Shown piece after piece: positions 1 through 58,359 of a DNA stretch of 64,000 nucleotides (its first letter is position 1; the number at the start of each line of letters is the position of its first letter). This DNA comes from Prostheceraeus crozeri (taxonomy: Eukaryota; Platyhelminthes; Polycladida; Euryleptidae). A model generated the notes under the pieces. It worked only from the letters and a program-made list of their open reading frames with translations, was not told the DNA's origin and did not search any database. The DNA lies in contig CAJQUW010003174.1 in NCBI GenBank assembly GCA_907163375.1, forward strand, positions 496,001 to 560,000, given 5' to 3'. Made by a program: the position numbers and the translations under genes.

Positions 1-1013
1 TTTGAAAGCTAAGAGTGAGACAAATTCACTGAAAGAATCGGCTTGTTCCTATCTGTCTTCGTTTAGATGTGAGACGCCATTTAAGATTTTGGGACATTGG
101 CGAAAAACGACAGAGTTAGAATTGGGACGTTTTGGGCTGTAGCTTCAAAACGAAGCATCGGATTGGAAAACGGATTTCAGATTTGGAATCAGCGTGAAAT
201 TCTCTATCTGTATGGTGAGTTTCAAGTCAATCGGCGAGAAAAATTTTCGCTGACTCCCCCCCCCCTCTGGACAGCTCGCTTCGATTTTGGCTTCCAGTGG
301 ACGGATTTTGTCGTGACATAGCTCGTTTGAAAGCTAAGAGTGAGACAAATTCACTGAAAGAATCGGCTTGTTCCTATCTGTCTTCGTTTAGATGTGAGAC
401 GCCATTTAAGATTTTGGGACATTGGCGAAAAACGACAGAGTTAGAATTTGGGACGTTTTGGGCTTTAGCGCCAAAACGAAGGCTCGGATGGGAAAAAGGA
501 TTTCAGATTTGGAATCAGCGTGAAATTCTTTATCTGTATGGTGAGTTTCAAGGCAATCGGCGAGAAAAAATTTTCAACATTTTTCGAAAAAACGACAGAG
601 TTAGAATTTTTGCGATGGCTGCCTACTGTAGAGCCAAAACGAAGCATCGGATGGGAAAACGGAGGCCAGATTCGGATTCAGAGTCAAATTCTACATGGAA
701 ATGGTGTATTTCCAGCTCAATCGGAGAGAAAAAATTTTCGCTGACTCCCCCCCCCTCTGGACAGCTTGCTTCGATTTTGGCTTCCAGTGGACGGATTTTG
801 TCGTGCGATAGCTCGTTTGAAAGCTAAGAGTGAGACAAATTCAGTGAAAGAATCGGCTTGTTCCTATCTGTCTTCGTTTAGATGTGAGACGCCATTTAAG
901 ATTTTGGGACATTGGCGAAAAACGACAGAGTTAGAATTTGGGACGTTTTGGGCTGTAGCTTCAAAACGAAGCATCGGATGGGAAAACGGAGGCCAGATTT
1001 GGAATCAGCTTGA
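1..1013 (+). repeat. Left terminal inverted repeat: tandem array (truncated)
   Basis: Tandem copies of a repeat marked by TTTGAAAGCTAAGAG at 1, 326 and 816, i.e. spacings of 325 and 490 bases. The long unit contains an extra ~165-base segment with the GCGATGGCTGCCTACTGTAG stretch. Each unit carries a C8-10 run followed by TCTGGACAGCT. The same units occur in reverse complement at 20947-23950. The array stops near 1013, just before the CCAAT/TATA promoter. Open frames across it are by-products of the repeat. Confidence 0.9.
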
Positions 1014-1022
1014 TGTTATTGT

Positions 1023-1070
1023 CCAATGAGGATCATCATCCAATGAGAATCAAGCATTTCTTTATAAATA
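1023..1070 (+). promoter_or_regulatory. Left early promoter: two CCAAT boxes and TATA box
   Basis: CCAATGAG occurs twice, at 1023 and 1040, followed by TATAAATA at 1063-1070. The gaps are 12 bases between the CCAAT boxes and 18 bases from the second to the TATA box. The same gaps occur on the minus strand at 17375-17328, in front of the polymerase gene. Transcription should start near 1090-1100 and run into the ATG at 1169. It lies immediately inside the terminal repeat. Confidence 0.75.
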
Positions 1071-5259: not shown

Positions 5260-5475
5260 ATGAAGCAGATGTGTTGCTTGCCATGTAATGAGCCGCCAGA
5301 GGTGAATGTCGTTGTCACTTGCACTTGCTGCGCCAGCTCTCATAATGAAACCCCTAAGCAATGTGAACACGATCGCAAAACCGCTAAAGCTAAATGCTGC
5401 AGTTGTTGTAAATGTAGAAAGGCAAGAAAACAAAAAGATGAGAAGGAGGAAAAAGAGTCAGCCGTCATCGACTGA
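5260..5475 (+). CDS. Cysteine-rich small protein overlapping the integrase
   Basis: 71 codons from the ATG at 5260, one base after the previous stop (TAATATG). It has about a dozen cysteines in clusters (MCCLPC, CTCCASS, CCSCCKC), then a Lys/Glu-rich tail. The final 38 bases overlap the integrase start proposed at 5438 in another frame. The alternative integrase start at 5306 would give a low-complexity leader of Ala/Leu/Val that looks like a shifted reading of this Cys-rich frame, so I favour the Cys-rich ORF as the real gene here. Metal-binding or disulfide-rich role unknown. Confidence 0.45.
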   Translation: MKQMCCLPCNEPPEVNVVVTCTCCASSHNETPKQCEHDRKTAKAKCCSCCKCRKARKQKDEKEEKESAVID

Positions 5476-6526
5476 ACGTTTGAAGTCAATCTATTATGAT
5501 GTAAAACATCCGGCAGGATTTGCATCTATCAAGAAATTATCAAAAGCGAGTGGTCTTCCACAATCACAAGTGAAACGATGGTTAAAGGGTCAGGCTACCT
5601 ATACACTCCACAAACAAGCGAAAAAGAAGTACCGCACCCGCCATTATATTGTTCATGACATCGATGAACAGTGGCAAGCAGATTTGTGCGATGTTGCCTC
5701 CATTTCAAAACATAACTCGGGCAATAATTTTATTTTAACCGTCATTGATATTTTCTCGCGTTATGCGTGGGCTCAACCTTTAAAAACTAAAGAAGGGAAA
5801 GGAGTAGCAAAAGCATTCCAAACAATTTTTCGAGAAGGTCGCATTCCAAAAAGAATTCAGAGTGATCAAGGAAAAGAGTTTGAAAATCAGCATGTGACAA
5901 GATTATTTGAGAGGCATGACATTGAGTTGTTTAGTGTAAAGAGCGCTTATAAAGCTGCACTCGTTGAACGTTTTAATCGCACATTAAAAAATCGCTTGTG
6001 GCGACATTTTACTGCCAACTTGACACAAAATTGGACAAAGGTTCTACAAGATACACTCCATGCCTACAATCACTCTATCCATCGTTCTATTGGACTCAGA
6101 CCAGTAGATGTAAATGCTGACAATGTAGATAAAGTGCGCGAATCATTCCAACGTAAACGCACTCATGTGAAAAGTGATGTGAAAATTGGCGATAAAGTTC
6201 GTATCTCAAAAGTGAAAAGTGTTTTTGCTAAAGGGTACCTCCCGAATTGGACAGAGGAGGTATTTACAGTATCAAGGATTAATCAAAAAGACTCTCCGAC
6301 CACCTACAAGTTGAAAGATTACGATAATGAAGAAATTGAGGGTAGCTTTTACCGCGATGAGATTGAGGTAGTCACTGAAAGTGAAACATATTTGGTAGAG
6401 AAAATCATTCGATGTAAAAAACGGCAAGGTGAAGAATGGTGTCTTGTTAAATGGACTGGTTATCCTTCAAGTATGAACTCTTGGATGCGTCGTGCCGACA
6501 TCTTTCATCTAAGTGATCGACAGTGA
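5438..6526 (+). CDS. Retrovirus-type (rve) integrase with C-terminal chromodomain
   Basis: Integrates the element DNA into the host chromosome. From the ATG at 5438 the protein is 362 residues. The catalytic core carries D82 (QADLCD), D143 (SDQGKEFEN) and E177 (LVERFNRTLK), the DDE triad with the expected ~33-residue D-E spacing. An SH3-like segment with GDKVRIS follows near 251-257, and residues ~315-358 form a chromodomain (YLVEKIIRCKKRQGEEWCLV), suggesting targeting to modified histones. A start at 5306 is possible but would add an unlikely leader. Frame intact. It closes the ATPase-headed gene cluster. Confidence 0.93.
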   Translation: MRRRKKSQPSSTERLKSIYYDVKHPAGFASIKKLSKASGLPQSQVKRWLKGQATYTLHKQAKKKYRTRHYIVHDIDEQWQADLCDVASISKHNSGNNFILTVIDIFSRYAWAQPLKTKEGKGVAKAFQTIFREGRIPKRIQSDQGKEFENQHVTRLFERHDIELFSVKSAYKAALVERFNRTLKNRLWRHFTANLTQNWTKVLQDTLHAYNHSIHRSIGLRPVDVNADNVDKVRESFQRKRTHVKSDVKIGDKVRISKVKSVFAKGYLPNWTEEVFTVSRINQKDSPTTYKLKDYDNEEIEGSFYRDEIEVVTESETYLVEKIIRCKKRQGEEWCLVKWTGYPSSMNSWMRRADIFHLSDRQ

Positions 6527-7025: not shown

Positions 7026-8303
7026 ATGGAGTGTAAAACTTCCGGTTTTTGTTTGTTCGATCAACAAGCCATACAGACAGATATTCTTAGTTCAAGTATT
7101 GTAGATTATCATCCTCGAACAGCTGAGAATGCTGGCCCCATTGAATTTGTTATTCCTGGTGGTAGTGATGACTACATAGATTTGAGTTATGCGATGCTTG
7201 ATTTGAGGTTTAGAATTCAGCAAGCAGATGGAACTGCTATTGACGATGCACATAAAGTTGGACTGAACAATTTACCATTGACTACATTACTTCGCGATGT
7301 TTCTCTAACGATTGGAGAGCAGCAGGTGGAAGGTGGTCAAAGCGATTATCCCTATAAATCATATTTCAATCATGTATCACAGTTTCATCCAGCAGCACAA
7401 AAAAGTCATATGGAAGCCATGGGATGGTACAGAGATGAAGCAGGAAAATTTGATGTTGAAACAAACAGTGGCTTTGTAAAGCGATCTGCTATGATTAAAG
7501 ATAGTAGAGTATGTCAGCTATATGGTCCGCTGAATTTAGACTTCTTTAGACAGTCAAAGTTTTTACTCTGTAATACCAGCATGCGACTCAAGCTGACATT
7601 GAATAAGCCTGAATTTGCGCTGAATGCATTTGCTAAAGTTGACAATTTTAGAATTCATGTGGAAGATATTGCACTTTACATTCGTCGAGTAGTACCGAAT
7701 CCAAGTGTCATTAGAGGGCATGCTGAAGGTCTTAACCGCCAAAATGCCATTTACCCCGTTCAGCATACAAAGCTTCTCACCTTTACAATTCCGAAAGATC
7801 AAAAGAGTTTCATGAAAGATGGCCTCTTTCCATCGGAAGCACCGAAGCTCCTCATGGTGGCAATGGTTGAAAATGATGCATTTAATGGTAATATAAAGAA
7901 GAATCCTTTCAATTTTAAACACAATCAGTTAAGTGAAATTGCTTTACGTGTAAATGGTGTGAGTCATCCTGGTCCACCCTACAAACCAGATTTTGCTTCG
8001 GATCAATTTATGCGCAGTTATGTTGATTTTATGGATGTCTTTGGCTTTTACAATACGGATGACACCAACGGACTGACTATGAAAGAGTTTAAGAGTGGAT
8101 ATACTATTTATGCATTTGATTTGACTGCTGACAGCGATATTAGTGCACCCTATCGTCAAGCGAACGTGCCTCATAATATTCGTTTGGATTTGACGTTCAA
8201 AAGAACACTACCTGAGACGATCAATGTATTAATTTATGCAGTCTTCGATTCAAATATTGAAATTACAAAGTATCGTGACGTGATTCTTCAGTATAATCGT
8301 TAA
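7026..8303 (+). CDS. Capsid protein, F54H12.2-like family (probable major capsid)
   Basis: 425 residues, intact. The opening (TSGFCLFDQQ...) and blocks such as GPIEFVIPGGSDDYIDL, DYPYKSYF and NDAFNG..KNPFNFKH mark the F54H12.2-like family found in Polinton copies of many invertebrates. Length and predicted beta-rich composition suit a double-jelly-roll shell protein, and the gene lies directly in front of the protease, as hexon does in adenovirus, so I call it probable major capsid protein; a minor capsid role is the alternative. Its stop overlaps the protease start by one base (TAATG). Confidence 0.8.
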   Translation: MECKTSGFCLFDQQAIQTDILSSSIVDYHPRTAENAGPIEFVIPGGSDDYIDLSYAMLDLRFRIQQADGTAIDDAHKVGLNNLPLTTLLRDVSLTIGEQQVEGGQSDYPYKSYFNHVSQFHPAAQKSHMEAMGWYRDEAGKFDVETNSGFVKRSAMIKDSRVCQLYGPLNLDFFRQSKFLLCNTSMRLKLTLNKPEFALNAFAKVDNFRIHVEDIALYIRRVVPNPSVIRGHAEGLNRQNAIYPVQHTKLLTFTIPKDQKSFMKDGLFPSEAPKLLMVAMVENDAFNGNIKKNPFNFKHNQLSEIALRVNGVSHPGPPYKPDFASDQFMRSYVDFMDVFGFYNTDDTNGLTMKEFKSGYTIYAFDLTADSDISAPYRQANVPHNIRLDLTFKRTLPETINVLIYAVFDSNIEITKYRDVILQYNR

Positions 8304-8764
8304 TGAGTTGGTTGACTGCTGACGATATTAAGACTAAAGTGCAGCGTAATGCAGACGAAGCGACGTTGAAAGCTTTCGATAATGTCTATTCACTCGATAC
8401 CTTACCACCTGCAGTAAATCACTATCCCATCTTTATTGTGCTAAACACTCATTCACAGAATTTAGGCGGTGAGCATTGGAAAGCGATCTTTATTGGAGAA
8501 GACCGACGTGGTGAACTATTTGACTCTCTTGCTCAACCTCCAAATATACCAACACAGCAGTGGTTGAGAAAACATACGCGTCAATATCAGCGAAATGAAC
8601 GCATACTACAACATCCACTTTCATCAACGTGTGGTGCTTTTGTACTGTACTTCATCTTAAAACGTTTACATGTATCTCGATTTGCATCTGTTATTCAAAA
8701 CTTTTCATGTAATCCATCCTCTAATGAAAAAATGATTTGTAAGTTCTATCATGATTTGAAATAA
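8303..8764 (+). CDS. Adenain-like cysteine maturation protease
   Basis: 153 residues. Catalytic elements are visible in adenain order: H58 in GGEHWKAIF, D74 in ELFDSLA, oxyanion Gln (Q103) in ILQHPL, and C110 in STCGAFVLYF. This C5/Ulp1-fold protease cleaves capsid and core precursors during particle maturation. It starts in the stop of the capsid gene (TAATG) and ends with a TAA that is part of an AATAAA signal, so it is the last gene of that mRNA. Intact. Candidate substrates are the two basic proteins with Q-K/R-G-G. Confidence 0.9.
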   Translation: MSWLTADDIKTKVQRNADEATLKAFDNVYSLDTLPPAVNHYPIFIVLNTHSQNLGGEHWKAIFIGEDRRGELFDSLAQPPNIPTQQWLRKHTRQYQRNERILQHPLSSTCGAFVLYFILKRLHVSRFASVIQNFSCNPSSNEKMICKFYHDLK

Positions 8765-8795
8765 AAACATCATGTTGGAAAAATTGTTTTTTATT
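8760..8795. terminator. Back-to-back poly(A) signals between convergent genes
   Basis: AATAAA on the plus strand at 8760-8765 includes the protease stop codon; AATAAA on the minus strand at 8795-8790 includes the stop of the TBP/PC4-like gene. Only 24 bases separate the two signals. Confidence 0.65.
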
Positions 8796-9657
8796 TTACA
8801 ATCCGCTGGGTACGTACATACTCAATGAGATAGTCTAGGATCATATTTGCTTGTACATGAGATTTTAGTCCAGTAATGATCACTTTACTATTATGAAAGA
8901 TTGCCACATGCACAGGTAACCAACAACTAATGAGAGCTGCAGGAAAAAGTTCGGGTTCATAACACAAACTGTAACTGCTGGTACGAATCTTCAAAAATGA
9001 TAGACTGTCACTCAATTGAGTAGAGATCACCATATTGTCCACAGTCAGATTCGACATCACACACCTCTCCCTCTTCCATATCCGACGTAGTAGTCTTTGT
9101 AGCTCTAAGCGCATTGACTGCGCCGATGAATGAGAAAGGGCGCCGAGAATCTGTACAGTCCCATTTGGAAGAGTTGAAGATTCCGTGAATTGTTCATCTT
9201 CACCACTAACATTTGAGGACGGCCCGGGTAATACTTGCTGTTTGGAAGCTGTTGGTGTAATGTTGTGAGATCGATTTTGGTGTAGAGTCTGAAGCGACGG
9301 AGAATGTTGACGATGGTGTAGCGATGGCGCTTCATGATGAAAGAATGAGTAAATTGAGCGATGTACCTTCCTTTTATACTTTTCCCAACTACCTTGATGA
9401 AATGTGAAGTTAGTATGAAGTTGGGAATGATAGAGTTGAATTCGCCGATTGTTGACGCGCAGCCAGATGCGATTTCCAATACGTGAATGTCTTTTCATAT
9501 AGAAGTATTTCAAGTCCTTCATGATATGATGTAGAGATTGAAAATGACGATAAGATAAAGCAAACTCTCTTCTCACATTTCCAGTTGAATCTTTGAAATA
9601 GACGTTTCGATCATGATCCGTTTCAATACGTTGTAGGGAATCTAATTTCCAACTCAT
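8791..9657 (-). CDS. PC4-like plus TBP-like fusion protein
   Basis: 288 residues. Residues ~5-105 contain two PC4 (transcriptional coactivator p15)-like units, each with a short beta region ending in a basic/aromatic block and a helix (..ALSYRHFQSLHHIM.. and ..FTFHQGSWEKYKRKVH..). Residues ~109-160 are a Ser/His/Pro-rich linker. Residues ~162-193 match the end of the first TATA-binding-protein repeat (NGTVQILGA, then a helix), and ~200-288 match the second repeat, with YEPELFPAALI at 233-243 and SKVIITGLKS at 257-266. The two phenylalanines that kink DNA in TBP repeat 2 have counterparts F238 and F254. The N-terminal half of TBP repeat 1 is missing. Likely role: element-encoded promoter recognition factor in the nucleus. 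It lies behind an ATGCAAAT motif, 22 bases downstream of a PC4-like paralogue. Confidence 0.75.
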   Translation of the reverse strand: MSWKLDSLQRIETDHDRNVYFKDSTGNVRREFALSYRHFQSLHHIMKDLKYFYMKRHSRIGNRIWLRVNNRRIQLYHSQLHTNFTFHQGSWEKYKRKVHRSIYSFFHHEAPSLHHRQHSPSLQTLHQNRSHNITPTASKQQVLPGPSSNVSGEDEQFTESSTLPNGTVQILGALSHSSAQSMRLELQRLLRRIWKRERCVMSNLTVDNMVISTQLSDSLSFLKIRTSSYSLCYEPELFPAALISCWLPVHVAIFHNSKVIITGLKSHVQANMILDYLIEYVRTQRIVK

Positions 9658-9679: not shown

Positions 9680-10036
9680 TTAAGATTTGCATAGTAGGGC
9701 GATGAACTCACGACGAATAAATGTCATGATGGAGCGATGTATGTATCTTCTATACTTCTCCCAATTGTATTTGCGAAATGAGAAACAGTTTGCGGAATGA
9801 GAATGGTAGATTTGAATTTCATTTCTGTAATGTTGAAGCCAAACTTGATCACCCAAGGAGATGAATCTTAATGTTTCAAAATATTCCAAATCCCTCATGA
9901 TATCATTGAGGTTGACAAATTGTCGCCATGTTAATGTAATTCCTCTTGATGTATGACCATGAGAATTTTTGAAATGTACGTTTCCATCACGATCAACTCT
10001 GATATATTGTAGAGAGTCCAAAATCCAAGTCTTCAT
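9680..10036 (-). CDS. PC4-like protein, paralogue of the N-terminus of its neighbour
   Basis: 118 residues from the ATG at 10036; a longer start would need TTG. It aligns along its whole length with residues 1-105 of the TBP-fusion gene downstream (LDSLQ, GNVHFK versus RNVYFK, WEKYRRYIHRSI versus WEKYKRKVHRSI), so one arose from the other by tandem duplication. Two PC4-like units are suggested by the repeated pattern of beta hairpin, R-G-I-T-L or F-x-F, and a helix. PC4 proteins bind single-stranded and melted promoter DNA, dimerise and assist RNA polymerase II. It is divergent from the gene at 10072, with only 35 bases between start codons. Confidence 0.6.
   Translation of the reverse strand: MKTWILDSLQYIRVDRDGNVHFKNSHGHTSRGITLTWRQFVNLNDIMRDLEYFETLRFISLGDQVWLQHYRNEIQIYHSHSANCFSFRKYNWEKYRRYIHRSIMTFIRREFIALLCKS
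9685..9692 (-). promoter_or_regulatory. ATGCAAAT motif upstream of the TBP/PC4-like gene
   Basis: Minus-strand ATGCAAAT, 35 bases before the ATG at 9657. It lies within the 3' end of the PC4-like gene. Confidence 0.5.
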
Positions 10037-10042
10037 GATGTT

Positions 10043-10050
10043 ATGCAAAG
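10043..10050 (+). promoter_or_regulatory. ATGCAAAG motif and TA-rich box in a divergent promoter
   Basis: ATGCAAAG 29 bases before the ATG at 10072, with ATATAAAA at 10064-10071 touching the start codon. The 35-base gap to the divergent PC4-like gene must also hold that gene's promoter. Confidence 0.45.
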
Positions 10051-11500: not shown

Positions 11501-13014
11501 ATGGAAAGTGAAAATAAGGACTCGTTTCTAATCTACTTGCCCAGTAATGCTTCTATGAATAAATTTCCCAAAAATAAACCATCAGACTATCGAGTAGAAT
11601 TAAATCGGCCACTGCATTTAGAAGGTGAATGGGAGGTTGGCGTTTCTAGTATTTGCTATGATAGCAATATTCAGAATGTGAATGATTTGGAAGAAATGAT
11701 ATTGACTCCTCGCACCCATGATGGAATAACGATGAATAATGCATTTCAGTTCCCATACAATTTAACATCAGATGGAAAGTGGAACTATGAATGGATTCAG
11801 ATAAAATCAGATTCTTATGGTCCATTTGGAGAAAATTATTAAGGCATTCAACAGTGGTAATACTTCCATCATGAAGAATAAAAATCAGAAAGCTTATGAG
11901 TTTACTATCTATCATTGGAGTGGGAGACAGTTCCTCCGCTTTCATTCTTTTACTAAAGGTCTTACGCTGAGGTTGGATAGTGAATTCTATCCACATCTTG
12001 GTTTTGGTCATGGACTACATCTAACGTCAATTGCTACTGCAAATGTTAAAAAAGTTTATTCAAATCGAATCAACAAATTTCATATAGATTTAAAATATTT
12101 GATGAAGATGTTGTAGAATGCGAAGAACGCATCATTTTGAAAAAGCGTGGTGTTCAACCTTTATCACTTATTGAGTTAGTAAAACGATGGAATGAGACTG
12201 TGGGTAAGAAGTATGGAGAGAAAATTATGGCGGACAAAAATAAGTTGGTTATTCAGAAATATAATGACAAACTTACAGTTTATTTCTCTCCAACCTTGCG
12301 TCATTTTGTAAGACATTATACGCCTATTATTGGAAGCGGTGTGGTGTATGGTTCTCATGAATATCACACTAAAGCTGATTCAGTTAATGATGAATGGTGG
12401 TGGACATCTATGGCGATCGCATCAAGAAAATTTACCAGTCTTATGAAGAATCTAAAGTTGCTATCAATATAATGCCGCGTCTATATCATACAGTTGAAAG
12501 CTTCATTCATGTAGTAAATCCTTATATACAACAGAAGTTGAAGCATGTGATGAAAAGTAAATATGATGTAAAGACACACCACATTTCGTTTTCAATTGAA
12601 AATCAACGCGTTGTTCTGAAACTGGGTGATGACATTCAATGTCAATTGAGTAAAAATTTGAAAAAACTCTTTGGCTTTTCAATGCTACAAACTGTGTTTG
12701 CTGCTGCGCATACGATTGGTATAGAAACACCAATGACACTTGATAAACATGAACAGCACCTTTACATTCAAAGTGATTTGATTTTACCTATTTCTGTTGG
12801 CGAGAAAAAAGAATACATTTTACGTGATTTCATTCATGATAAAGACGCTTCATATGGAATAGTCGAGAAGATGTTTGAATCTATTTTCTATCATCCCGTC
12901 GTCAAACAAACTATACCCTCTATTGCTATCAAAATTACCAATGGTTTACAAGAGTGCATCCATGTGAAAGATACTAAATCCCTCGTAACTTTAGTGTTTC
13001 GGAAAACAAAGTGA
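11501..13014 (+). pseudogene. Polinton conserved protein B, paralogue of A, several frame breaks
   Basis: About 500 residues spread over four frames: 11501-~11835, ~11836-~12112, ~12113-~12400 and ~12400-13014. N-terminus (SFLIYLPSNAS, then GEWEVGV) and C-terminus (SLVTLVFRK) match the same family as the gene at 10072-11461. Shared internal landmarks with A are a MPR.. segment, an HISFS stretch and a GF motif about 110 residues before the end. The two probably arose by tandem duplication and may form a hetero-oligomer; this is inference. AATAAA follows at 13038. Confidence 0.62.
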
Positions 13015-13029
13015 AGTCATTGTGATATG

Positions 13030-13043
13030 TTTATTGAAATAAA
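13030..13043. terminator. Overlapping poly(A) signals of protein B and polymerase genes
   Basis: Minus-strand AATAAA at 13035-13030 for the polymerase gene and plus-strand AATAAA at 13038-13043 for protein B, two bases apart, in the short convergent gap. Confidence 0.55.
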
Positions 13044-13192
13044 AATATGTATATGAAAAAGTCTTTTCACAGATATAGGGGAATGGGCTGACTGTAGGCA
13101 TATATTCACAAGGAAGAAACGATCTCATGCGATACATAAAACAACCATGTATATCTACAAAAAGCAACATCAAAATACTGAGTTAAAGTTGA

Positions 13193-16100
13193 TTATGTCA
13201 ATACATCTCCTGAATGTGGTAGCGTGAGTTTTATTCTTTTGGGTGGAGGTATGTTTGTGTCAGGATGTCCATGTGGAAGAGATGTGTTATGTCCTATCCA
13301 ACACCTCTTATCCTCCCATGCTGAAAGTGCTCGTTTCTTGAACGTGTACGTTTTCACAGTATGAACTTGAGATTTTAAGATTGTCATATTGACAAACGTT
13401 ATAGTTTTATTTTTATAGGCCTTCTTATAGGACCGATGTTTCATTTTATGAACAATGGATTTTGATATACCTTTAGCACGCTTAATACTATCTGCACATT
13501 CTTTTAGTTTCATGGAATACATTTTAGGACGGAGGAGAATCATTTCATCTATTTCCTTTCCTGCTGTTTCATCCTTAAAACAACCAAGTTTGGCTTTATT
13601 CTGTATGGAATAGAGTGGATGAGTGGGATTGTAGTTAGATGTGTCGAAATATTTTCTAATGACTTGCCTACTTCATTAAAATTTAAATCTTTTTGAGTGG
13701 TAATTCCTAAAAAGAAACTATCTGTATCACCACCCAGCAAGCGAACCTCTTTTACGAGAGGGCATGGTTTTAATATTTTGTAGAAGAGTTGATACATTTC
13801 AAGCTTGGAATAATCTAAAACGGCTTGCCCAATATAGATGGGTTTGCACAACTCAACTTCTGATTTAATCATTTTAACACCTACAAGATCCTCATCGATG
13901 ATGTCTCTATCAATGAAAAGAGGTGATGAGGTCAATTTGTGATATTTTTGTTCATCAACGACTAGTTTGTAATTCATACGTTTTCTAACATCCTCCATGG
14001 TCTTTCCGAATAGACTATTATTCTTATATTTATAAAAATCCTTTTCAAAATTATTTTGGGCGAGTGCACGTTTTTGACTGTTACTATCTATGTAGGGTTT
14101 GAGGAAGGCTTTCTGTCTAAATTTGATAATGCGGTGAACTGACTTTAGAAGCATGCCCATTTCTAAATAGAATTTTAATATGCAGAAGTGTACGAGATAA
14201 TTGTTCTTATCATATTGGTGAGTAAAAGTTTGCGGCATGGTTTGTACCTTGGCTGTCCACACTCTGTTAAGTTATTATGAAATTGTGACATGAATGGTGA
14301 AAACATATCTTCAGTCACTTCGCCAGATTCAGGTGCGAGTGGGAAATCAGCAGTTTATTTTTAATGCTATTTGGATAAATCAAATCCACTTCAAAATAAT
14401 ATCCCCAATCACCTTCATCTGGAATCTTCAGTATGTTTGAAGGGTTGGAGTAATACTCAAGCTCATCTTGATTTAACCAACTAAACTCGGAATGAGGTAG
14501 TGGTTTAGACAGTGAACTGCCATATAAATTATTTTGGTCATAGTACTTTAGGTGGATATGATCATCACCTACTGTTTCAGATTTTATATGATGTTTATTT
14601 ACAAATGTGAGACCACCGCGTATTCCGCGCTCAAATATATTATACATCTCCCGGTCTTGTAAGAGATGAATGGTCTCACCAGTCATTTTAAAGGCTGATT
14701 TAAAGGACATGGCTGGTAGACTGACAAAGTGGATAGGATCTAATTTGTCTTCTTCTAATGCCACTCGTCGAAATTCCTGAAAGACATCAGCCAGCAAAAT
14801 GACATCTAATTCTAAGTAAGCGATCATATAATCGCCAAACGTTTTACAATTAAATTTTAACCATGCCTCTTGAGCATGTCATCATAGTCCTCTACTGGAC
14901 AATCTTCACCCGTCAAATCGTTTTTTGAATTTGTCAATGGAAGGAAGGGTTGTTTCATTTAGTTTAGACATTGAGCTAAAATACGCATAAGAAAGACTCC
15001 TTTGCGAGTGATTATTTCATCCGTTAAGTTTGGATAGTGTTTCTTCAAAGTTTGACTATGGGAAGAAACTTGAGATTACGAACGAGAGAAGCTAGTGACG
15101 CTGACATGAATTGAAATGAATCTAAAAATTTTATTTCGAAGAAGACTGTCTTATTTTCTTTAGTTTTATCTACTGGTACTTTTGCTGTCATTGCCATGAA
15201 TTTTTCTCTCGTTTGTGCTATTACATTAAACTGCCACGATTTCATCTGGCTCAACCCTCCTTTTATGAGCATATGACTGTCATAGCCCTTAAAGTTATGA
15301 AAAATGACGGGTAGTACACGACGTCCAACCTAAGTGAAAAGTTACATTTGGAGCAGAGTGCGTTTCTAAATTTACCAGTGATGTGATCATGATCACGCAC
15401 TTTCTTAATTTTATCGTCATCAAACGTTTTATGACATTTAGGACAGGATGTGCAACTTTCAAATTTTTGTTTGTCTTCATCTGACATATGTAGTGACTTA
15501 CGCTGCAATTGGAATCATATGATGTTGAAATTTAGCAGCTTTATCGAGAAATTCTAGAAATTTTGAAATGCAATCTTCACCTTGCCAAGTATGCATTTTG
15601 TTTTGTCTATTCCTAAAGTGGTCATGCCATACTTCATAGCAGGATATGGCTGCTGCTTTGTGGATGATATCATCAATGTAGCATTCTATGTCTGCGTAAA
15701 TGACACGCAGGGGACTTAATTCGTCACCATTATCCCTATGTGAAAATATTTTATCTTTGGGCATGCGTTCCATTTGTAATTTACCTCGCTTGCACCATTC
15801 ATAGTGAGTTTCAAATTTATCTTTACTCCAAAAGGAGCGGATGCAGCGGTCGCATACAAAATGTTCACCTCTTTTAGAGTGCCCCAAGTGAGTGTACAAG
15901 CGAGAGATTTTGGGAATACCACAGTAGTGCCATTCCTCGCTATCATCTTGTTTTTACTAATAAGAGTTGACTACACGTTCATAACAAGTTGAACGTGAAT
16001 TATAGCGAGCACCCTTCAACCCCTTCTCCCACACGTGAACGACAATTTTAATCTTATTATGTTTTTCGAACGTTTCTACATCTTTGATTTTCATGTTGTT

Positions 16101-17161
16101 ACTATCACAACCTTCAAAGTCTAGTTCATCCTCCCACTGTCTATAGCTATAGGTATGATTTCGATTCGCGTTGATATCATTATAGCGAAGGATGGATAGG
16201 ACTGCATATTTGAAACACTGTGATTTACAATCGACATTGATGACAGCTTTCTTATTATACAACGTTTTTGGTAGTCTAAATGTACCTCGAGCTGCATGAC
16301 TTTCTAATAGTGAAATTTTGAATATGGCTGAGTCCACGCCATCAAAAATGAGAGCGCTGTCGCGTTGATTGAATTTATCTACATTTGATTTTAAACATTG
16401 AATGTGAAAATTTAGCCAAGACTCGCAGTCTACAACTTCGGTTGCGGAAGAGGAAGGAACATGAAACTGTATTCTCTCCGTCACTTGACCCGTTTGAAAA
16501 TCTATCTTAATATATTTTAGTTTGAGGTAGATGAGGGCCTTCATTCTAAAATTGTCTAAATTGTTGAAGAGCGCTTCGATAATGTTAGAATTTTGAAGGA
16601 GCCACTCAGGAAAATCTACTATTTGAGTATTGGACTCCATGCAGTAGTCGCGTACTAAATTATTGTGTGAAACATTAATGAGGGAGATGGTAGAGGTACC
16701 GTTGGTGTAGTGATCATTTGCATGCGTGTGTTGAAGTCTGTGCGAAGATCGCTGAAAGTGACTATCAAAAGAAAGAGGGCACAAATCGCAAGGAAAGGAA
16801 TGTCATCGTCAGAATCAACTTCACCTCCGGAGATTGACGCCGCTTTGCGTTGACACACACGTTGTTTGATGTGTCGAAGGAGACTGTGCTTCCTTGTAAA
16901 CATATGTCCGCAGTCGGCACATTCCCACTCGTTGCCTTGTCGCGAGAGTCCTGAGCTGGAACTCACATCACCTGAAAGAGAAATCATTCTATCATCTCTG
17001 TTCAAGTCTCAGTGTATTGTTACAACCTACCTTGACTCAACGACTCTAAACTTTCCTCGAGAAAGGAGGGCGTTGGTGATGAAGTTGATGCCTGAAATTG
17101 AGGAAAATGCTATTAGCCACACGTTTGAGGGAGATGAGTGAAGAAATTTTCAACTTACCAT
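13193..17161 (-). pseudogene. Protein-primed DNA polymerase B, spliced 5' end, broken frame
   Basis: Replicates the element by protein priming. Predicted 5' exons on the minus strand: 17161-17159 (ATG only), 17091-17031, and 16971 onward, with GTAAG/GTAGG donors and TTTCAG acceptors; phases agree. The N-terminus has two C2H2/C2HC zinc-finger-like sites (near 16930-16860 and 16800-16730) and a third Cys/His site near 15860. Exonuclease motif I (YADIECY, ~15690), a CxxC/HDH zinc ribbon (~15460-15340), Exo III-like YLELDVILLADVF (~14820), polymerase motif A-like YYDQNNLYG (~14550), motif B NSLFGKTME (~14010) and motif C GGDTDSFF (~13730) are all present. At least eight frame changes occur, near 16795, 15955, 15505, 15310, between 15045 and 14830, 14345, 14262 and 13665. 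The copy cannot encode one continuous polymerase as it stands. Confidence 0.88.
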
Positions 17162-17327
17162 TTCAATGAAATCAAGTTTAAGGTTGATACTTCAGTCAAA
17201 TAATACGTCTCAAATTTGGAATTCACTAGAGAGCAGTTCACTTGTACACCTCAAATATAGAATTCGCTAGAGAACACTTCACTTATACGTCTCAAAGACA
17301 GAGTGAAATGATACGGATGTCACTTTG

Positions 17328-17375
17328 CTTATATACTTTCATATTCATCATTCATTGGATGTTCATTCTGATTGG
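17328..17375 (-). promoter_or_regulatory. Right early promoter of the polymerase gene (likely bidirectional)
   Basis: On the minus strand, CCAAT at 17375-17371 and 17358-17354, then TATATAAG at 17335-17328. Gaps are 12 and 18 bases, the same as in the left early promoter. The gene at 17433 starts in the opposite direction, with TATA-like TGTATACT at 17382-17389, so the CCAAT pair probably serves both directions. Confidence 0.72.
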
Positions 17376-17432
17376 CTGCTTGTGTATACTTCAGAATTAG
17401 AAAACATTTCAAAGTCATTATTCACAGTCAAC

Positions 17433-17870
17433 ATGACAAGTCCTCCAACAACACCAAATACCGCAGTGGAGTTCTCCTCTCCATGTACATCAGCAAAGGT
17501 GCTCGTTACACCAAATGCACCAAGAAAGGCGAAGGTGGAGAAGACATACGATCTGGACAATATACGAAAGTTATCATTATCGGAGGATGATGAAGAGGAG
17601 TTGCCCGACCTAACAGGCATACGGTGGAAATATTTACAATATGACGCCGAAGGGGTGATGGAGATGACCAGCAAGTCGCACTTGCATCAAATATGGGAGT
17701 GGTACACCCCTAACTCCCAACCGCGAACCGTGGCGGAGTGGGCGTACATTGAGAAAGTGAGGCTCGCAGTGGAAGAACGATTGAAACAAGTGAACTGTTT
17801 TTGTGATCTATGTGAAGTCAGACTCTGGGACGATATTGACGATGAAGACCTTTTGAAATACATGCCATAA
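17433..17870 (+). CDS. Unknown acidic protein, 145 residues
   Basis: Starts at the ATG at 17433 (GTCAACATGACA). The first ~45 residues are Ser/Thr/Pro-rich and end in a basic stretch (PRKAKVEK); then an acidic run SEDDEEELPD at about 50-59; a Trp-rich middle (IRWKYLQYD, IWEWYTP, EWAYI) and a C-terminal CFCDLC pair followed by WDDIDDEDLL. Domain not recognised. The acidic patch and C-terminal degron- or activator-like segment would fit a regulatory protein made early, since the promoter is shared with the polymerase gene. Its TAA stop overlaps an AATAAA signal. It could be replaced by host-interaction genes in other elements, but that is a guess. Confidence 0.6.
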   Translation: MTSPPTTPNTAVEFSSPCTSAKVLVTPNAPRKAKVEKTYDLDNIRKLSLSEDDEEELPDLTGIRWKYLQYDAEGVMEMTSKSHLHQIWEWYTPNSQPRTVAEWAYIEKVRLAVEERLKQVNCFCDLCEVRLWDDIDDEDLLKYMP

Positions 17871-17882
17871 TAAATTTTTATT
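17869..17882. terminator. Back-to-back poly(A) signals
   Basis: Plus-strand AATAAA at 17869-17874 overlaps the stop of the 145-residue gene. Minus-strand AATAAA at 17882-17877 could serve the leftward coiled-coil gene, giving it a long 3' UTR of about 730 bases. Confidence 0.5.
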
Positions 17883-18615
17883 TCGTATTATCTTTGCTTT
17901 CATACTGACTTACTTGAATGGGGCTTCACTGGATGATTTAACCATGTATACTTTTTCATTTGGAAATAGTAGCACGCTTAGTCTAACTTGCAAATCTTAT
18001 AACATTTCATATGGACGATGATGATAGATAAAATAGTGTTAAATAAAATTAAGATAGCTTACATGATTCTGGGATAGCAATCGACTGCGATCCATGTGTA
18101 AAGAGCTTGTTAGACTACGGAAGAGAGAAGTGTGTTATGTTGCGTGTGGCGCGTGAGTGTCCTCCCATTTCATTCCATTCATCAATTCGTCTCATTGATA
18201 GAGACAGGTAGAACTCATGGTTCTCATAACGTATGCAATGGAAAGTTTTAGGCAACCTTCGACAGTTGGCTAAATGTCGCCCTGGCGCGAATGCATACTA
18301 CGTTGAGACAGAGGCAATCACTTGCAAACATGACGCAGAGAGGTTTAACAAGATTGACCATTGCCGAATGTCCCTTGCGGTATACATAGCTACGGGTTTC
18401 ACCGCCGCCCTTTACAGGAACGCCCGTCGAAAGGAAGTATTACACCGAACTTCATTTGCAACGTTCAAGTTGACTGATAGCAGATTCAACTTAATGATAG
18501 TATTCGCCAGTCCGAAGACTGCCCAGGGCAAACCGCGAGGAGGTTCTATCATGTCTTGCCCCATGGTGGCCCTTAAGAGAGCCGATGGTTCGTTCTCGGG
18601 GTGTGTGGTAGGGAC
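17883..18615. other. Stretch without a supported gene
   Basis: About 730 bases, probably the 3' untranslated region of the leftward coiled-coil gene. A rightward open frame at 18233-18718 runs through its second half and antisense to the last coding exon; it has no recognisable motif and no promoter or poly(A) signal, so I do not call it. Confidence 0.4.
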
Positions 18616-19788
18616 TCAGGCTTGCTGTTTCGACTGCGGCTCCGGCAACGGGGCGGGTGGTCGCTTCTCTTGGATGTCTGTAAAGAAAGAAGTAGTGAGT
18701 TATCATCTTACATTTTAATTTAGTCATTTTTACTTACAGATCTTCTCGGACGCTTCCTCATAAAGGAAATTCGAGATCGGATCACGATGATCGAAGGTGA
18801 AGTGTAGACACTCCACCCCTTTCTTCACCCGAGAGTAGCATTTCTCCCCTCTTCCACGCTCGTACAAGAGAGGAGTTTCTGCTACTCTCCCCTTTCTAAT
18901 AGGGATGTGCAGACGACTGGAACGCACCCTTCGATCGCGATCCACCAGCTGCGCCGAACGGTGCAGCTCGTGGTTCGTCTCGACAACCTTAGCCATCTGC
19001 ACACGGAGTCTCTCCACTTCCTCCTTCAACCTTCGTATCTCCTTCTCCCTACTTTCCCTCTCTGCTAGCAAAGCCTCTTCTCTGGCTTTCCCCTCGAGAG
19101 TCTTGAGCCTCTCCTGCTCCAACTCGCCATCCCGCTCGCTTAATCTCTCCTTCACCTTCTTCATCTCTCCGGCCACGTTCTTTAGGTCCTCATACTTTGC
19201 CTTGTATGAGAAGGCCTCCTCCTTCAACTTCTCCGCCTCTTTCTTTAATCTATCCCGTTCGGCGATCACCGGCGGGCGCTTGACAAAATTGCGACATTGT
19301 GTTGCAATTCCACTTGCAGTTACGGCTGTAGGGGTCTCGCGATCGAGGTCGACGTCCTCGATAAGTTGCGACTGTAGCTCTCCCTCCTCCTCCTCACTAT
19401 CGCTGCTGGTCAGCGAACTCTCGCTACTAAGCGAGGATACAGCGGCAATCGCTTCAATGGCGGATTGTAGCTCAGTGGCCTCAGTGGTGAAAAGTGAACT
19501 CCGTTCTTGCTCGTTGGCAGATTGTAGCTCCAAAGAACGGAGCTCAGTGGCGAAGAGTGAACTCCGTTCTTCTTCGCCTACTTCGCCTGTTTGACACTCG
19601 CTGTGTTGTGAGTGCCAATCCTCCAGCCGCTCACTTAAGCGACTGACTTTGTGGGCTCCGCAATAGTAGCGAGCGACCCCTATCTGTTTCTTGTTAGTAC
19701 AAGCGTGCTTCTTGAAGGCGTCAGCTCGGAATACCTTCCGGCATTGACACAGTTTGAAACTGGTCTTCATATTATTGTATTTCGGCAT
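18616..19788 (-). CDS. Coiled-coil protein with N-terminal zinc site, spliced
   Basis: Two coding exons on the minus strand: 19788-18738 and 18677-18616, with a 60-base intron (GTAAGT donor at 18737, TTTACAG acceptor ending at 18678); without splicing the frame ends at 18728-18730. Product about 370 residues. Residues ~13-32 have CQC..H.C spacing of a C2H2/BED-like zinc site and a second Cys/His cluster follows to ~65. Then a Ser/Glu-rich region with a duplicated ERSSLF-TE..ELQSA block, an acidic stretch (SDSEEEEGE), and a Lys/Glu/Arg coiled coil at ~175-280. Base composition is clearly more GC-rich than the core genes, suggesting separate origin. An upstream 5' exon near 20821 is likely. Function unknown; scaffold or host-interaction roles are possible. 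Confidence 0.65.
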
Positions 19789-19790
19789 TT

Positions 19791-20820
19791 CTGAAGCGAA
19801 AAAACGGAAAACAATGATTTTACACTTAGTGAGGAATGATAGATTTGAGTATAGTGAGTGGCACTCGATCCCGTCGACAGCCCGAAGGCCTTGTACTGAT
19901 CACTAGGGAAGTGAGAGATCTTCCCCGATACCCGCTATTTACAGCTGAAGACATCATTGTTACTGCCCCGAAGTGGTAACAGCAACGCCGAGTCAAAGGT
20001 AGTGAACAGTAGCTGGGATCTAACCCCTCAAAGCTGCCTTAGACTTAGTTAAATTTGAAATCTGATAGCAGATTTGAACTTAGCATACTTGAAAACCTTG
20101 AGGAAACATCCCAAGTTATTGCTTTGATCAGCTTGATAGCAAGCCGTAGAGTGCTTGATTCACCAGCGTTTTGCAATGGAGATGTTTAGAGGCCACCCAT
20201 GACAAGATAGCTAAGACTCAACCGATTGGCGTTCAAAGTGCTACGTTGAGAGCTGTGTCAAATGCCCAACATGAGTTGCCCCAGCGGTTACGGTCTCAAA
20301 TATGACACATTCCCTTGCCACACTTATCACTACGGCATCGTCCGCCGTCCCGAAGGAACACCCTGTCAGTGGAATATTACAGCAAAACTCTCCGTGTCTT
20401 GCTCGCTTTCAGTGAAAAGCCGCTTATAGCATGAGAAGACTGGCTCAGACATCATTAAAAATGCTTTCATTGACTTCAGCAGGGTCGAAAACCCCAGAAA
20501 ACCTCCAAAACTAGTGAATTTAAATTTTTCAACTTTTTAGCACTACTAATGAAATTTTATAAGTAGTCCATCACTTAGGGCAGGTCAATAGCGACCGAAC
20601 CTTTTTTGAATCAAGTCAAACGGACTTGTAGAAGCAAAGTTACAAGCCTTTAAAGTTTTGGAGTCTTTTATGGCCTGGAGACGAAGGCCATCTCCTGGCG
20701 AACCTCTAAGTCTGACGCCTTAGCTGATATCAGCAATGAAATTTTCTAAGTCGGTTTCTTACAGAAACTCGGGATTTGGAATGTCCGAAGCTATCATCGG
20801 AGCTCAGAGAGACGACTTAC
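19791..20820 (-). other. Predicted 5' UTR intron of the coiled-coil gene; no gene seen
   Basis: Between a minus-strand donor AACG|GTAAGTCG at 20821/20820 and the acceptor TTTTTTCGCTTCAG ending at 19791, two bases before the ATG. I see no coding frame with recognisable features in this 1-kb stretch, which has intermediate GC content. Confidence 0.45.
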
Positions 20821-20901
20821 CGTTGGCAATCTCTCGTCTGAATGACAAGTCTCTGTCGGTTCCCAGCTTATATAGTGTGTGGCGATCAGCTGATGACGTA
20901 A
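20821..20901 (-). promoter_or_regulatory. Promoter of the coiled-coil gene next to the right inverted repeat
   Basis: Minus-strand TATATAAG at 20874-20867, an upstream CRE-like TTACGTCA at 20901-20894 and an E-box CAGCTG at 20892-20887. A splice donor GTAAGT follows at 20820, giving a very short noncoding first exon. No CCAAT pair is present, unlike the two early promoters. Confidence 0.5.
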
Positions 20902-20946
20902 TACCCATCATCCAAACACTAAAAATCCCGTCTATCTCCGGTTCTA

Positions 20947-23900
20947 GTGCTCCGATTGAGCTGGAAATACACCATTTCTATGTAGAATTTGACGCTAAAT
21001 CCGAATCTGGCCTCCGTTTTCCCATCCGAGCCTTCGTTTTGGTGCTACAGCCCAAAACGTCCCAAATTCTAACTCTGTCGTTTTTCGACAATGTCCCAAA
21101 ATCTTAAATGGCGTCTCACATCTAAACGAAGACAGATAGGAACAAGCCGATTCTTTCACTGAATTTGTCTCACTCTTAGCTTTCAAACGAGCTATGTCAC
21201 GACAAAATCCGTCCACTGGAAGCCAAAATCGAAGCAAGCTGTCCAGAGGGGGGGGACGTCAGCGAAACTTTTTCTCTCCGATTGACTTGAAACTCACCAT
21301 ACAGATAGAGAATTTCACGCTGATTCCAAATCTGAAATCCGTTTTCCCATCCGAGCCTTCGTTTTGGCGCTACAGCCCAAAACGTCCCAAATTCTAACTC
21401 TGTCGTTTTTCGACAATGTCCCAAAATCTTAAATGGCGTCTCACATCTAAACGAAGACAGATAGGAACAAGCCGATTCTTTCACTGAATTTGTCTCACTC
21501 TTAGCTTTCAAACGAGCTATAGCACGACAAAATCCGTCCACTGGAAGCCAAAATCGAAGCAAGCTGTCCAGAGGGGGGGGGAGTCAGCGAAAATTTTTTC
21601 TCTCCGATTGAGCTGGAAATATACCATTTCCATGTAGAATTTGACGCTGAATCCGAATCTGGCCTCCGTTTTCCCATCCGATGCTTCGTTTTGGCTCTAC
21701 AGTAGGCAGCCATCGCAAAAATTCTAACTCTGTCATTTTTTCGAAAAATGTTGAAAATTTTTTCTCGCCGATTGCCTTGAAACTCACCATACAGATAGAG
21801 AATTTCACGCTGATTCCAAATCTGAAATCCGTTTTCCCATCCGAGCCTTCGTTTTGGCGCTACAGCCCAAAACGTCCCAAATTCTAACTCTGTCGTTTTT
21901 CGCCAATGTCCCAAAATCTTAAATGGCGTCTCACATCTAAACGAAGACAGATAGGAACAAGCCGATTCTTTCACTGAATTTGTCTCACTCTTAGCTTTCA
22001 AACGAGCTATGTCACGACAAAATCCGTCCACTGGAAGCCAAAATCGAAGCAAGCTGTCCAGAGGGGGGGGGACGTCAGCGAAACTTTTTCTCGCCGATTG
22101 ACTTGAAACTCACCATACAGATAGAGAATTTCACGCTGATTCCAAATCTGAAATCCGTTTTCCCATCCGAGCCTTCGTTTTGGCGCTACAGCCCAAAACG
22201 TCCCAAATTCTAACTCTGTCGTTTTTCGACAATGTCCCAAAATCTTAAATGGCGTCTCACATCTAAACGAAGACAGATAGGAACAAGCCGATTCTTTCAC
22301 TGAATTTGTCTCACTCTTAGCTTTCAAACGAGCTATGGCACGACAAAATCCGTCCACTGGAAGCCAAAATCGAAGCAAGCTGTCCAGAGGGGGGGGGAGT
22401 CAGCGAAAATTTTTTCTCTCCGATTGAGCTGGAAATATACCATTTCCATGTAGAATTTGACGCTGAATCCGAATCTGGCCTCCGTTTTCCCATCCGATGC
22501 TTCGTTTTGGCTCTACAGTAGGCAGCCATCGCAAAAATTCTAACTCTGTCTTTTTTTCGAAAAATGTTGAAAATTTTTTCTCGCCGATTGCCTTGAAACT
22601 CACCATACAGATAGAGAATTTCACGCTGATTCCAAATCTGAAATCCGTTTTCCCATCCGAGCCTTCGTTTTGGCGCTACAGCCCAAAACGTCCCAAATTC
22701 TAACTCTGTCGTTTTTCGACAATGTCCCAAAATCTTAAATGGCGTCTCACATCTAAACGAAGACAGATAGGAACAAGCCGATTCTTTCACTGAATTTGTC
22801 TCACTCTTAGCTTTCAAACGAGCTATGGCACGACAAAATCCGTCCACTGGAAGCCAAAATCGAAGCTAGCTCTCCCGAGGGGGGGACGTCAGCGAAATTT
22901 TTTCTCTCCGATTGACTTGAAACTCACCATGCCGATAGAGAATTTCACGCTGATTCCAAATCTGAAATCCGTTTTCCCATCCGAGCCTTCGTTTTGGCGC
23001 TACAGCCCAAAACGTCCCAAATTCTAACTCTGTCGTTTTTCGACAATGTCCCAAAATCTTAAATGGCGTCTCACATCTAAACGAAGACAGATAGGAACAA
23101 GCCGATTCTTTCACTGAATTTGTCTCACTCTTAGCTTTCAAACGAGCTATGGCACGACAAAATCCGTCCACTGGAAGCCAAAATCGAAGCAAGCTGTCCA
23201 GAGGGGGGGGGAGTCAGCGAAAATTTTTTCTCTCCGATTGAGCTGGAAATATACCATTTCCATGTAGAATTTGACGCTGAATCCGAATCTGGCCTCCGTT
23301 TTCCCATCCGATGCTTCGTTTTGGCTGTACAGTAGGCAGCCATCGCAAAAATTCTAACTCTGTCATTTTTTCGAAAAATGTTGAAAATTTTTTCTCGCCG
23401 ATTGCCTTGAAACTCACCATACAGATAAAGAATTTCACGCTGATTCCAAATCTGAAATCCGTTTTCCCATCCGAGCCTTCGTTTTGAAGCTACAGCCCAA
23501 AACGTCCCAAATTCTAACTCTGTCGTTTTTTCACCAATGTCCCAAAATCTTAAATGGCGTCTCACATCTAAACGAAGACAGATAGGAACAAGCCGATTCT
23601 TTCACTGAATTTGTCTCACTCTTAGCTTTCAAACGAGCTATGGCACGACAAAATCCGTCCACTGGAAGCCAAAATCGAAGCAAGCTGTCCAGGGGGGGGG
23701 GAGTCAGCGAAAATTTTTTCTCTCCGATGGCGTTCAAATTCACCATACCGATGCAGAATTTCACGCTGAATCCGAATCTGGCCTCCGTTTTCTCATCCGA
23801 TGCTTCGTTTGGGCGCTACACACCAAAACGTGCCAAATTTTAACTCTGCCAAAATTTTGAAGAAACATTTTTTCTCGCCGATTGACTTCAAATTCACCAT

Positions 23901-23950
23901 ACCGATGCGGAATTTTACGCTGATCACGAATCTAAAGTCCGTTTCACCAT
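20947..23950 (-). repeat. Right terminal inverted repeat: 815-base higher-order tandem array
   Basis: The marker CTTTCAAACGAGCT recurs with its TTT at 21181, 21506, 21996, 22322, 22812, 23136 and 23627: spacings 325, 490, 326, 490, 324, 491. Short and long units alternate strictly, giving three 815-base composite repeats. Copies are nearly identical. Each unit has a G8-10 run followed by (A)CGTCAGCG or AGTCAGCG. Reverse complement of the left array. The array's inner end extends about 50 bases further than the left one. Small open frames are repeated by-products. Confidence 0.92.
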
Positions 23951-23955
23951 TCCAT

Positions 23956-24032
23956 CACGCCAACCTAGACGGTCGCCCACGTCAACCTAGACGGTCGCCC
24001 ACGTCAACCTAGGCGGTCGGCCACGTCAACCC
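23956..24032 (+). repeat. 22-base tandem repeat near the right tip
   Basis: Three and a half copies of a 22-base unit beginning CACG(C/T)CAACCTAGACGGTCG, at 23956, 23978, 24000 and 24022. Confidence 0.85.
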
Positions 24033-28317: not shown

Positions 28318-29212
28318 CTACAAGAGAAGACTCTTTTTCTTTGGAGCAAATAACACACTATGTCTGATGATCCTCACTGGGATATTGAAATATGGAGACG
28401 AAGTGACATACGGGCAATTCACTTCACCACGCACAACTCTGTGGAAAAATAATATATCCGTAACTTTGCGTCGCGTTTCAAGCGTAGTCAAATTAATTTT
28501 TGTACACAAGCTTTCATAATTATCTGAACAGTAACGGAAATTACTGACAAAACAAAGCTGTTTCACAAATCGTTTTTGAACACCTTCCAGTTTGCTGACC
28601 GAACATTTTAAGTCAGTAGACCAAAATGATGAACAATAATGAAGAACGAATATGCACATTGAACAAAACTTTTAGGCCATGTACATCAGTTGAGGATTTC
28701 ACGACTCTTTTGGCAAATCCTAACATCCGATATGCTCTCTTTACAATCATACCTACGAGTATATGAGCATTAAATGACAAATTAGAGGAAAAAATCACTC
28801 CAAGATCGTTTATCTCCTTAACATGACGCAGGAAACCATTGCTGAGCACATAATCAAAACTGACATGGCGGTTACGTTTCAAAGAAAAATCAATGAAGTA
28901 ACACTTTCTTAGGCTAAGCTTCAGTAACCATTTAGAACACCACAGTACAAGAGTATTTAGGTCACATTGTAACTCGAAACAAACATTCAAAGAATCTATA
29001 CGTTTGAATACTTTAACATCATCAGCAATTAACAAGCATTCGCCAGACTGAAAACATGTAGGGATGTCGTTGATGTACATAAGAAACAGTGAGGGTCCCA
29101 AAATAGATCCCTGAGGAACACCAGGAGAGAGTGGAACCCAAACTGACATTTCATCACTAATGATAACTCTTTGATGATAGCGATTCTCAAGATAGCTTTT
29201 GAGGCAGTTCAA
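28318..29212 (-). pseudogene. LINE reverse transcriptase fragment
   Basis: Two adjacent minus-strand frames. The upstream one carries PGVPQGSILGPSLFLMYIND and ADDVKVF, motifs of a non-LTR reverse transcriptase (the catalytic box reads IADD). The downstream one has the typical post-RT region (YCSSFWSTDLK..LEGVQKRF..NLTTLETRR). Endonuclease and N-terminal RT parts are absent and the frame is interrupted near 28620, so this is a dead 5'-truncated copy, probably of the jockey/CR1 type. Confidence 0.85.
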
Positions 29213-57087: not shown

Positions 57088-58359
57088 TCATATAAAAAGG
57101 AATTGTTTATATTGTTCACGTTCTTCTCTCGAGTTAATTTTCGGTTGTAGCTTGTTGATCCACACTGCTTCACGTAGTCTGATGTTAGTATTGTCGTGTT
57201 CTTGTGTTGTTACTTCTGTTGTTATGTGGTTACTGTTGCATAATTTCAAATGTTTATGTATTGATGATGCTTTTTGAGTAACGTGCTCTTTAATTCTGGT
57301 ATGCAGTAGTCTGATGGTACTCCCAATATAAAATTTTTGACATTTTGAACAAGTTATTTTATAAATCACATTTTGTCTGAAACAAGTTCGTTGTTGTTTA
57401 TGGGACAATTAGTGAGTTGACATGTTTTGTTGGTTGTGATTTTCTTTTGTAATACATTCCTCAGATTTTTTGAACGTTGTGCAAGTCCAACATTCAGTTG
57501 TTCTTGTTGGAATATTCTCTTTATATTCTGGTTCATTCGATCCGAAATGAATGGTAATTTCAGATAACATTTCTTCTTGTTCATGTTATTTTCATTTTTC
57601 TTATTTCGTCGTCGTTTTTTCGAAGCTTGAATGAATTTTTCTGGATAATCGTTCAATCGTAACACTTCATCGAAATTTTGTAGATGACTTTCGGCTATGG
57701 ATTTGTTCGAGCATCGTTCTTCAATTCTGTTTCGTTCATTATGGATAACTGCCAGCTTAGTGGATGCAGATATATTGGACTTGAAGTTAATGAAAATATC
57801 TCTTTTGGCTGTTTTCTTGTAGAAGTTAAAGATTGGTTCATTGGAGCTCGTCGTAATTGTAAAGTCTAAAAGACTCAAAGTATTGTTATCATTTGGTAGT
57901 TCAATTTCGAATTGAATGTTCGGAAATTATGCATTAATCTGTTAATACGAAAGAGTCATCAACATATCGTTTAAATATCCATATATTGTTGATACTTTGT
58001 AAAGCTCTCTTTTCTATGTTGTCCATGAATAGAATTGCTAATATCGGTGATAAAGATGAGCCCATTGGTAAGCCTTTGACTTGCTTGTATATTTCGTTTT
58101 CGTATGTAAAATATGTGTTATCTAAAATTACTTTGAGAAGGCTTATGATTGCTTGAAGAGGAATATTTCTGAGGTTGTTAATTCCTTGTTGTAGAAGAAT
58201 GTTGTTTACTTGAAAGATAGCTCCTTCAATTTGGATGGAAGGATACATCGAAATCACATCATAACTGCACGGATACGTAAAGTTGTCGTTATAATTGGAA
58301 GAAATAAAATGAATCAATTCTTGACTGTTCTTTAGATGAGCTTCTACTGTTGATAACAA
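57088..58359 (-). pseudogene. Penelope-like RT and GIY-YIG endonuclease, truncated
   Basis: From the upstream side: RT core with SYDVISMYPSIQ, GLPMGSSLSPILAILF and the catalytic YVDDSF (58359-57934); a linker/thumb region (57878-57366); and a C-terminal GIY-YIG nuclease with YKITCSKCQKFYIGST, R and EH (57408-57088) ending in a typical LREAVWI..KINSREE tail. This RT-then-GIY-YIG order is that of Penelope-like elements. The frame changes near 57930 and near 57390; the 5' part of RT is missing. Confidence 0.85.

Follow-up and report, generated by a model that had tools for sequence, protein, structure and literature searches.

We analysed a 64,000-nucleotide (nt) window of the Prostheceraeus crozeri genome (contig CAJQUW010003174.1, positions 496,001 to 560,000), the first part of which (1 to 24002, truncated on the left by the window border) is a Polinton (Maverick) element of roughly 24 kb. 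On its minus strand, at 8791-9657, an earlier note based on the sequence had placed a PC4-TBP fusion protein of 288 amino acids (aa). The open reading frame (ORF) is present as described, but the apparent fusion is almost certainly the product of two overlapping genes, here called gene A and gene B, joined by a frame break in this copy. That there are two genes with swapped frames follows from the fact that both of the pieces lost from the fusion are encoded in the window in other frames. The features of the locus are as follows.

9008..9657, minus strand: gene A, encoding a PUR-like (PC4-related) protein whose tail is disordered; ATG at 9657, stop at 9008 in another frame; broken here
8791..9335, minus strand: gene B, complete two-repeat TBP-like protein; front in ORF 9105-9479, back in ORF 8791-9657; broken here
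9008..9335, minus strand: two-frame coding stretch in which the gene A tail overlies repeat 1 of gene B; 328 nt in this copy and 329 nt in intact ones
9160..9180, minus strand: approximate switch point of both reading frames and source of the apparent fusion
9680..10048, minus strand: PUR-like domain related to that of gene A but lacking the tail; about 118 aa counted from the ATG

Two overlapping genes

The earlier note had made its claim of a C-terminal TBP module depend on a significant TBP profile score, and residues 204-280 of the ORF gave 32.7 bits against PF00352, above the curated cut-off of 22.9 bits; TBP chains in the PDB were matched with E-values to 1.2e-11. The segment NGTVQILGA indeed closes TBP repeat 1, and both DNA-kinking phenylalanines of repeat 2 were found in the ORF. 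The first half of repeat 1, which had been thought missing, is present in ORF 9105-9479(-), from MKRHRYTIV at 9335, and the idea of dimerisation that was built on its loss falls away. This ORF holds the front half of gene B, whose ATG is at 9335 and whose stop is at 8791. A protein search with the whole 288-aa ORF gave seven homologues (P0001-P0007), which were aligned; P0004-P0007 (177-202 aa) are complete TBP-like proteins and include the supposedly missing half of repeat 1. P0005 scored 80.7 bits with PF00352 and is predicted to fold as two direct repeats forming one saddle, and 30/30 gene B relatives match PF00352 at E<=0.1. Gene B belongs to the TBP family. Of the four positions of the DNA-kinking residues of TBP, three are phenylalanine in 30/30 relatives (F77, F152 and F168), while the fourth is an invariant proline, P61; because of P61, gene B is not filed as a canonical TATA-kinking TBP, in which all four are phenylalanines. 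The E-x-E residues of repeat 2, presumably those that contact TFIIB, are also invariant in 30/30 relatives. Compared with the solved eukaryotic and archaeal TBPs (PF00352), the gene B family is about 19-28% identical, lacks an N-terminal domain, and has in repeat 1 an invariant GRP, in which proline replaces the first kinking phenylalanine, and LG in place of TG.

The other three homologues, P0001-P0003 (216-222 aa), match the first part of the ORF and then continue into another tail. P0001 is 99% identical to the ORF over this first part (57% of the ORF), and its different tail is encoded letter for letter, from KWDCTD to SIE, in the stop-to-stop frame 9008-9193, which speaks against one normal fusion protein. 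In the structural model of P0001, two beta-beta-beta-beta-alpha units are packed like Pur-alpha repeats I-II. The tandem PC4-like N-terminus of the earlier note is upheld in so far as the first 108 residues of the ORF lie in this two-unit domain, although the modelled fold is closer to PUR. No Pfam match to a PUR or PC4 profile was found in the 19 proteins searched, and none to PUR or PC4 by sequence among PDB sequences. Because of this lack of a profile match, our claim for the gene A product is limited to a predicted PUR-like fold and does not extend to membership of the PUR or PC4 family. Gene A differs from the Pur-alpha PUR domain, Whirly and PC4 single-stranded-DNA-binding proteins both in having no sequence match to them and in its extra disordered tail, which is overprinted on the TBP gene. 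The tail-less PUR-like relative directly upstream of gene A (9680-10048) resembles a local duplication.

Both genes switch frame near position 9,17x, where the frame of gene A before the break continues as that of gene B after it. Among the 140 database proteins retrieved, the gene A profile accounts for 20 and the TBP profile for 120, with no protein matching both, so that the fusion finds no counterpart as a conserved protein. The gene A set comprises 14 full-length proteins and six shorter matches of 84-147 aa; the overlap in database proteins was deduced from their protein sequences. Of the 27 TBP residues most conserved in the overlap, each of the 14 full-length gene A proteins can encode 25-27 in the neighbouring frame at the expected register, as against means of about 6 and a maximum of 16 in 2000 shuffles per tail, and at most 10 in registers shifted by 1-3. 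Paired with the best of the 120 TBPs, these 14 proteins gave jointly encodable runs of 16-51 residues, compared with a maximum of 8 in 320 shuffled-TBP controls and with 7 and 5 for two short gene A fragments. When synonymous codons were drawn at random, 0 to 0.03% of trials left the gene A frame open across 109 TBP codons. In 21/119 proteins of the wider TBP family (150-245 aa) the stretch up to the first conserved Asn is 30 residues or longer, and these extra N-terminal residues resemble the end of the gene A domain read in the other frame (p<=0.004 for 20/21 in 500 shuffles; p=0.026 for P0119; the best of 25 registers was taken in data and controls alike).

The same arrangement is found directly in the DNA of other copies in the window's own assembly (2.05 Gb, 14,165 contigs). 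With P0001 as query, at least 150 places were found, with gene A open in all those listed at 99-100% identity; with P0004, at least 150 places were found, with the TBP in one open frame in all those listed. We read 36 loci from these two lists. At 25 of them both genes are open in the same copy, one base apart, with a 329-nt overlap; at seven, one of the two frames was not detected with the motifs used; and at four (L085, L086, L088 and L089) another break puts the front of gene A and a complete TBP into one 292-codon frame, which is another accidental joined form. Since many copies are 99-100% identical in gene A, the element has spread recently. It is very abundant, with at least 135-150 places among the matches listed and 11,638-23,264 first-look candidates.

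Selection on both genes

Both genes are under purifying selection. In four pairs, each comparing main-family copies with a subfamily about 12% different, the ratio of nonsynonymous to synonymous substitution rates (dN/dS) was 0.19-0.28 where the sequence codes for A alone and 0.23-0.24 where it codes for B alone. For the overlap it was 0.18-0.19 in the gene B frame and 0.69-1.06 in the gene A frame, and the gene A tail is therefore weakly constrained. Differences per base were 6-8% in the overlap versus about 13-15% outside it, and the third frame contains 9-10 stops. A fifth pair, from within the family, had too few changes to be informative (0.32 for A alone, 0.85 for B alone, and for the overlap 0.23 in the gene B frame and 2.48 in the gene A frame).

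Promoters and proposed function of the gene pair

One candidate promoter signal lies just upstream of gene B.

9371..9378, minus strand: TATA box TATAAAAG, inside gene A and 43 nt ahead of the ATG of gene B

Either TATAAAAG or TATATAAG stands at this site in 6/6 copies looked at, from two subfamilies, and this conserved box suggests that gene B has its own promoter. Among the 18 starts tested, gene B alone has a TATAWAWR within 60 nt; the chance of one 25-60 nt upstream of a random position is 0.0095, and the box, 1 among 18 starts, is suggestive. No further common motif stood out. In the working that we propose, the element TBP would sit on element promoters and kink the DNA, mainly via its canonical repeat 2, its E-x-E residues would recruit host TFIIB and RNA polymerase II, and the PUR-like protein may bind single-stranded promoter or replication DNA. 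No RNA polymerase was found among the ORFs scanned by Pfam, a full annotation of the element not having been made.

Some observations qualify this proposal. The TATA box before gene B also codes for gene A. TATA boxes are not enriched: TATAWAWR occurs 36 times in the window versus 31.4 +/- 7.6 expected (28/100 shuffles reach 36) and 12 times in the first 24 kb, so that the strong element-wide TATA boxes which the earlier note regarded as an obvious target do not emerge. Together with the loss of one kinking phenylalanine from repeat 1, this would fit a TBP-like protein that bends DNA for replication, integration or packaging, or that acts as a decoy for host TBP partners, and has no part in transcription start. 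Against such a role stand the E-x-E residues of repeat 2 and the three invariant kinking phenylalanines, and we regard it as unlikely, if the most serious of the alternatives. A role of the gene pair in transcription has, in our judgement, a little better than an even chance. The gene pair, its overlap in the DNA of other copies, the purifying selection, the TBP fold and the PUR-like fold of the model are computational results; expression, DNA binding and partners are what we infer here.

Origin of the joined frames

The break in the window might be a base-calling or assembly error in a copy that is really intact. Length errors do occur in repeats and some lesion sites recur, but the break is common to 17 other copies, several of them nearly identical to one another, and the polymerase region of the window copy is also in pieces across several frames, for which reason this copy looks worn. 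Such an error is improbable.

A further explanation is that a true PUR/PC4-TBP fusion is made and used with half of repeat 1 lost, and that copies with the window's break are a functional variant that has spread. In its favour, the 288-aa ORF is open, and the joined ORF as query found at least 135 places in the genome, 89-100% identical and most without a stop; at first sight these open joined copies favour a real fusion. Such a query, though, puts joined copies first by design, and the 68 joined loci read of the 135 listed show 24 classes of length change, located at differing sites within the overlap. Open joined frames do occur in other copies, but they were made by many different lesions. 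The window's own break is in 18 of the 68 loci, the window included, and some of these copies are identical over 879 nt. For 16 of the 18 the nearest copy belongs to this same group, and three copies of the group show no difference at the positions compared, so the broken form was copied along. Mean differences are 1.2% within the window-break copies, 1.5% from these to intact copies and 1.5% among intact copies, and there is therefore no deep separate lineage of window-break copies. The separate open genes are abundant and under purifying selection, the database set holds no joined protein, and the joined product would be without half a TBP repeat. A functional fusion is, on this evidence, very improbable. 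Least probable of all is programmed ribosomal frameshifting in the overlap, giving a minor fusion product in intact elements: two long frames do overlap on one strand, but no support for it was found (a slippery site or structure was not searched for), and the product would have half a TBP repeat less.

Two overlapping genes joined by a break remain our explanation. A high-copy Polinton carries gene A and gene B overlapping on its minus strand, and a frame break in the overlap damages both genes here and yields the apparent fusion, with other breaks acting alike elsewhere. Taken as a whole, with the gene pair, the break and the proposed working, we hold this account with considerable confidence.

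The element and its surroundings

The remaining features of the element are listed below.

1..1063, plus strand: left terminal inverted repeat, containing tandem units and truncated on its left by the window border
5306..6526, plus strand: retrovirus-type integrase with chromodomain (Polinton INT); PF00665 and PF00385 above cut-off
8303..8764, plus strand: Ulp1/adenovirus-type cysteine protease-like ORF (Polinton PRO); PF02902 19.2 bits, cut-off 20.7; PF00770 weak
13193..17005, minus strand: type B DNA polymerase region, split into ORF pieces that lie in several frames; PF03175 36.5 bits in 14318-14827 only
20924..24002, minus strand: right terminal inverted repeat with internal tandem units

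The element is assigned to the Polintons because of its long terminal inverted repeats, chromodomain integrase, weak protease match and pieces of type B DNA polymerase. The repeats consist of tandem units of about 163/325 bp and are about 97% alike over the longest arm pair. ORF 7026-8303(+) (425 aa) gave no Pfam or PDB sequence match; it sits where a Polinton capsid protein would be expected. A charged 352-aa ORF at 18730-19788(-), in a GC-richer patch near the right repeat, had no Pfam match above cut-off. The host flank contains reverse transcriptase and GIY-YIG pieces at 57091-58359(-) and 28616-29212(-), a combination typical of Penelope elements.

Relation to known systems and significance

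Giant viruses, mirusviruses and herpesviruses are known to have TBPs of their own. Like the TBPs of giant viruses (Nucleocytoviricota) and mirusviruses, gene B encodes a virus-type TBP-fold protein (BFVD matches); unlike them, it lies in an element of about 24 kb and not in a large genome, and it overlaps a PUR-like gene. A mirusvirus TBP cluster is present in 59% of mirusvirus genomes versus 0% of Nucleocytoviricota (PMC10132985), the TBP and other factors of a giant algal virus are described as probably acting on the RNA polymerase of the host (PMC12085832), and the TBP mimics of herpesviruses of the Kaposi's sarcoma-associated herpesvirus (KSHV) ORF24 type are viral TBP-like factors that steer host RNA polymerase II (PMC12529657). 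The working proposed here would resemble that of the ORF24-type mimics as the last source describes them, whereas the Polinton protein is a plain two-repeat TBP. A TBP in Polintons is undescribed in the literature searched, subscription papers being outside its coverage. The Polinton with PC4-TBP of the earlier note survives to the extent that a Polinton encodes a member of the TBP family next to a protein that is PC4-like and, judged by its fold, closer to PUR; what does not survive is their fusion.

Polintons are commonly placed near the root of many eukaryotic DNA viruses, and to our knowledge little is known of how they switch on their genes. We tentatively suggest, as a possibility somewhat short of an even chance, that this is a widespread, recently active Polinton lineage with its own promoter-recognition set, in which a TBP with a rewritten repeat 1 and a PUR-like partner, its tail overprinted on the TBP gene, would redirect host RNA polymerase II to element promoters unlike host TATA boxes. 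The TBP-like family is small enough for biochemical testing, the 329-nt overlap clearly exemplifies overprinting on a protein family that has relatives of solved structure, and frame breaks within a gene overlap can repeatedly mimic a striking gene fusion. A selected, conserved TBP gene in a Polinton means that a general transcription factor can be carried by small elements and not by giant viruses alone.
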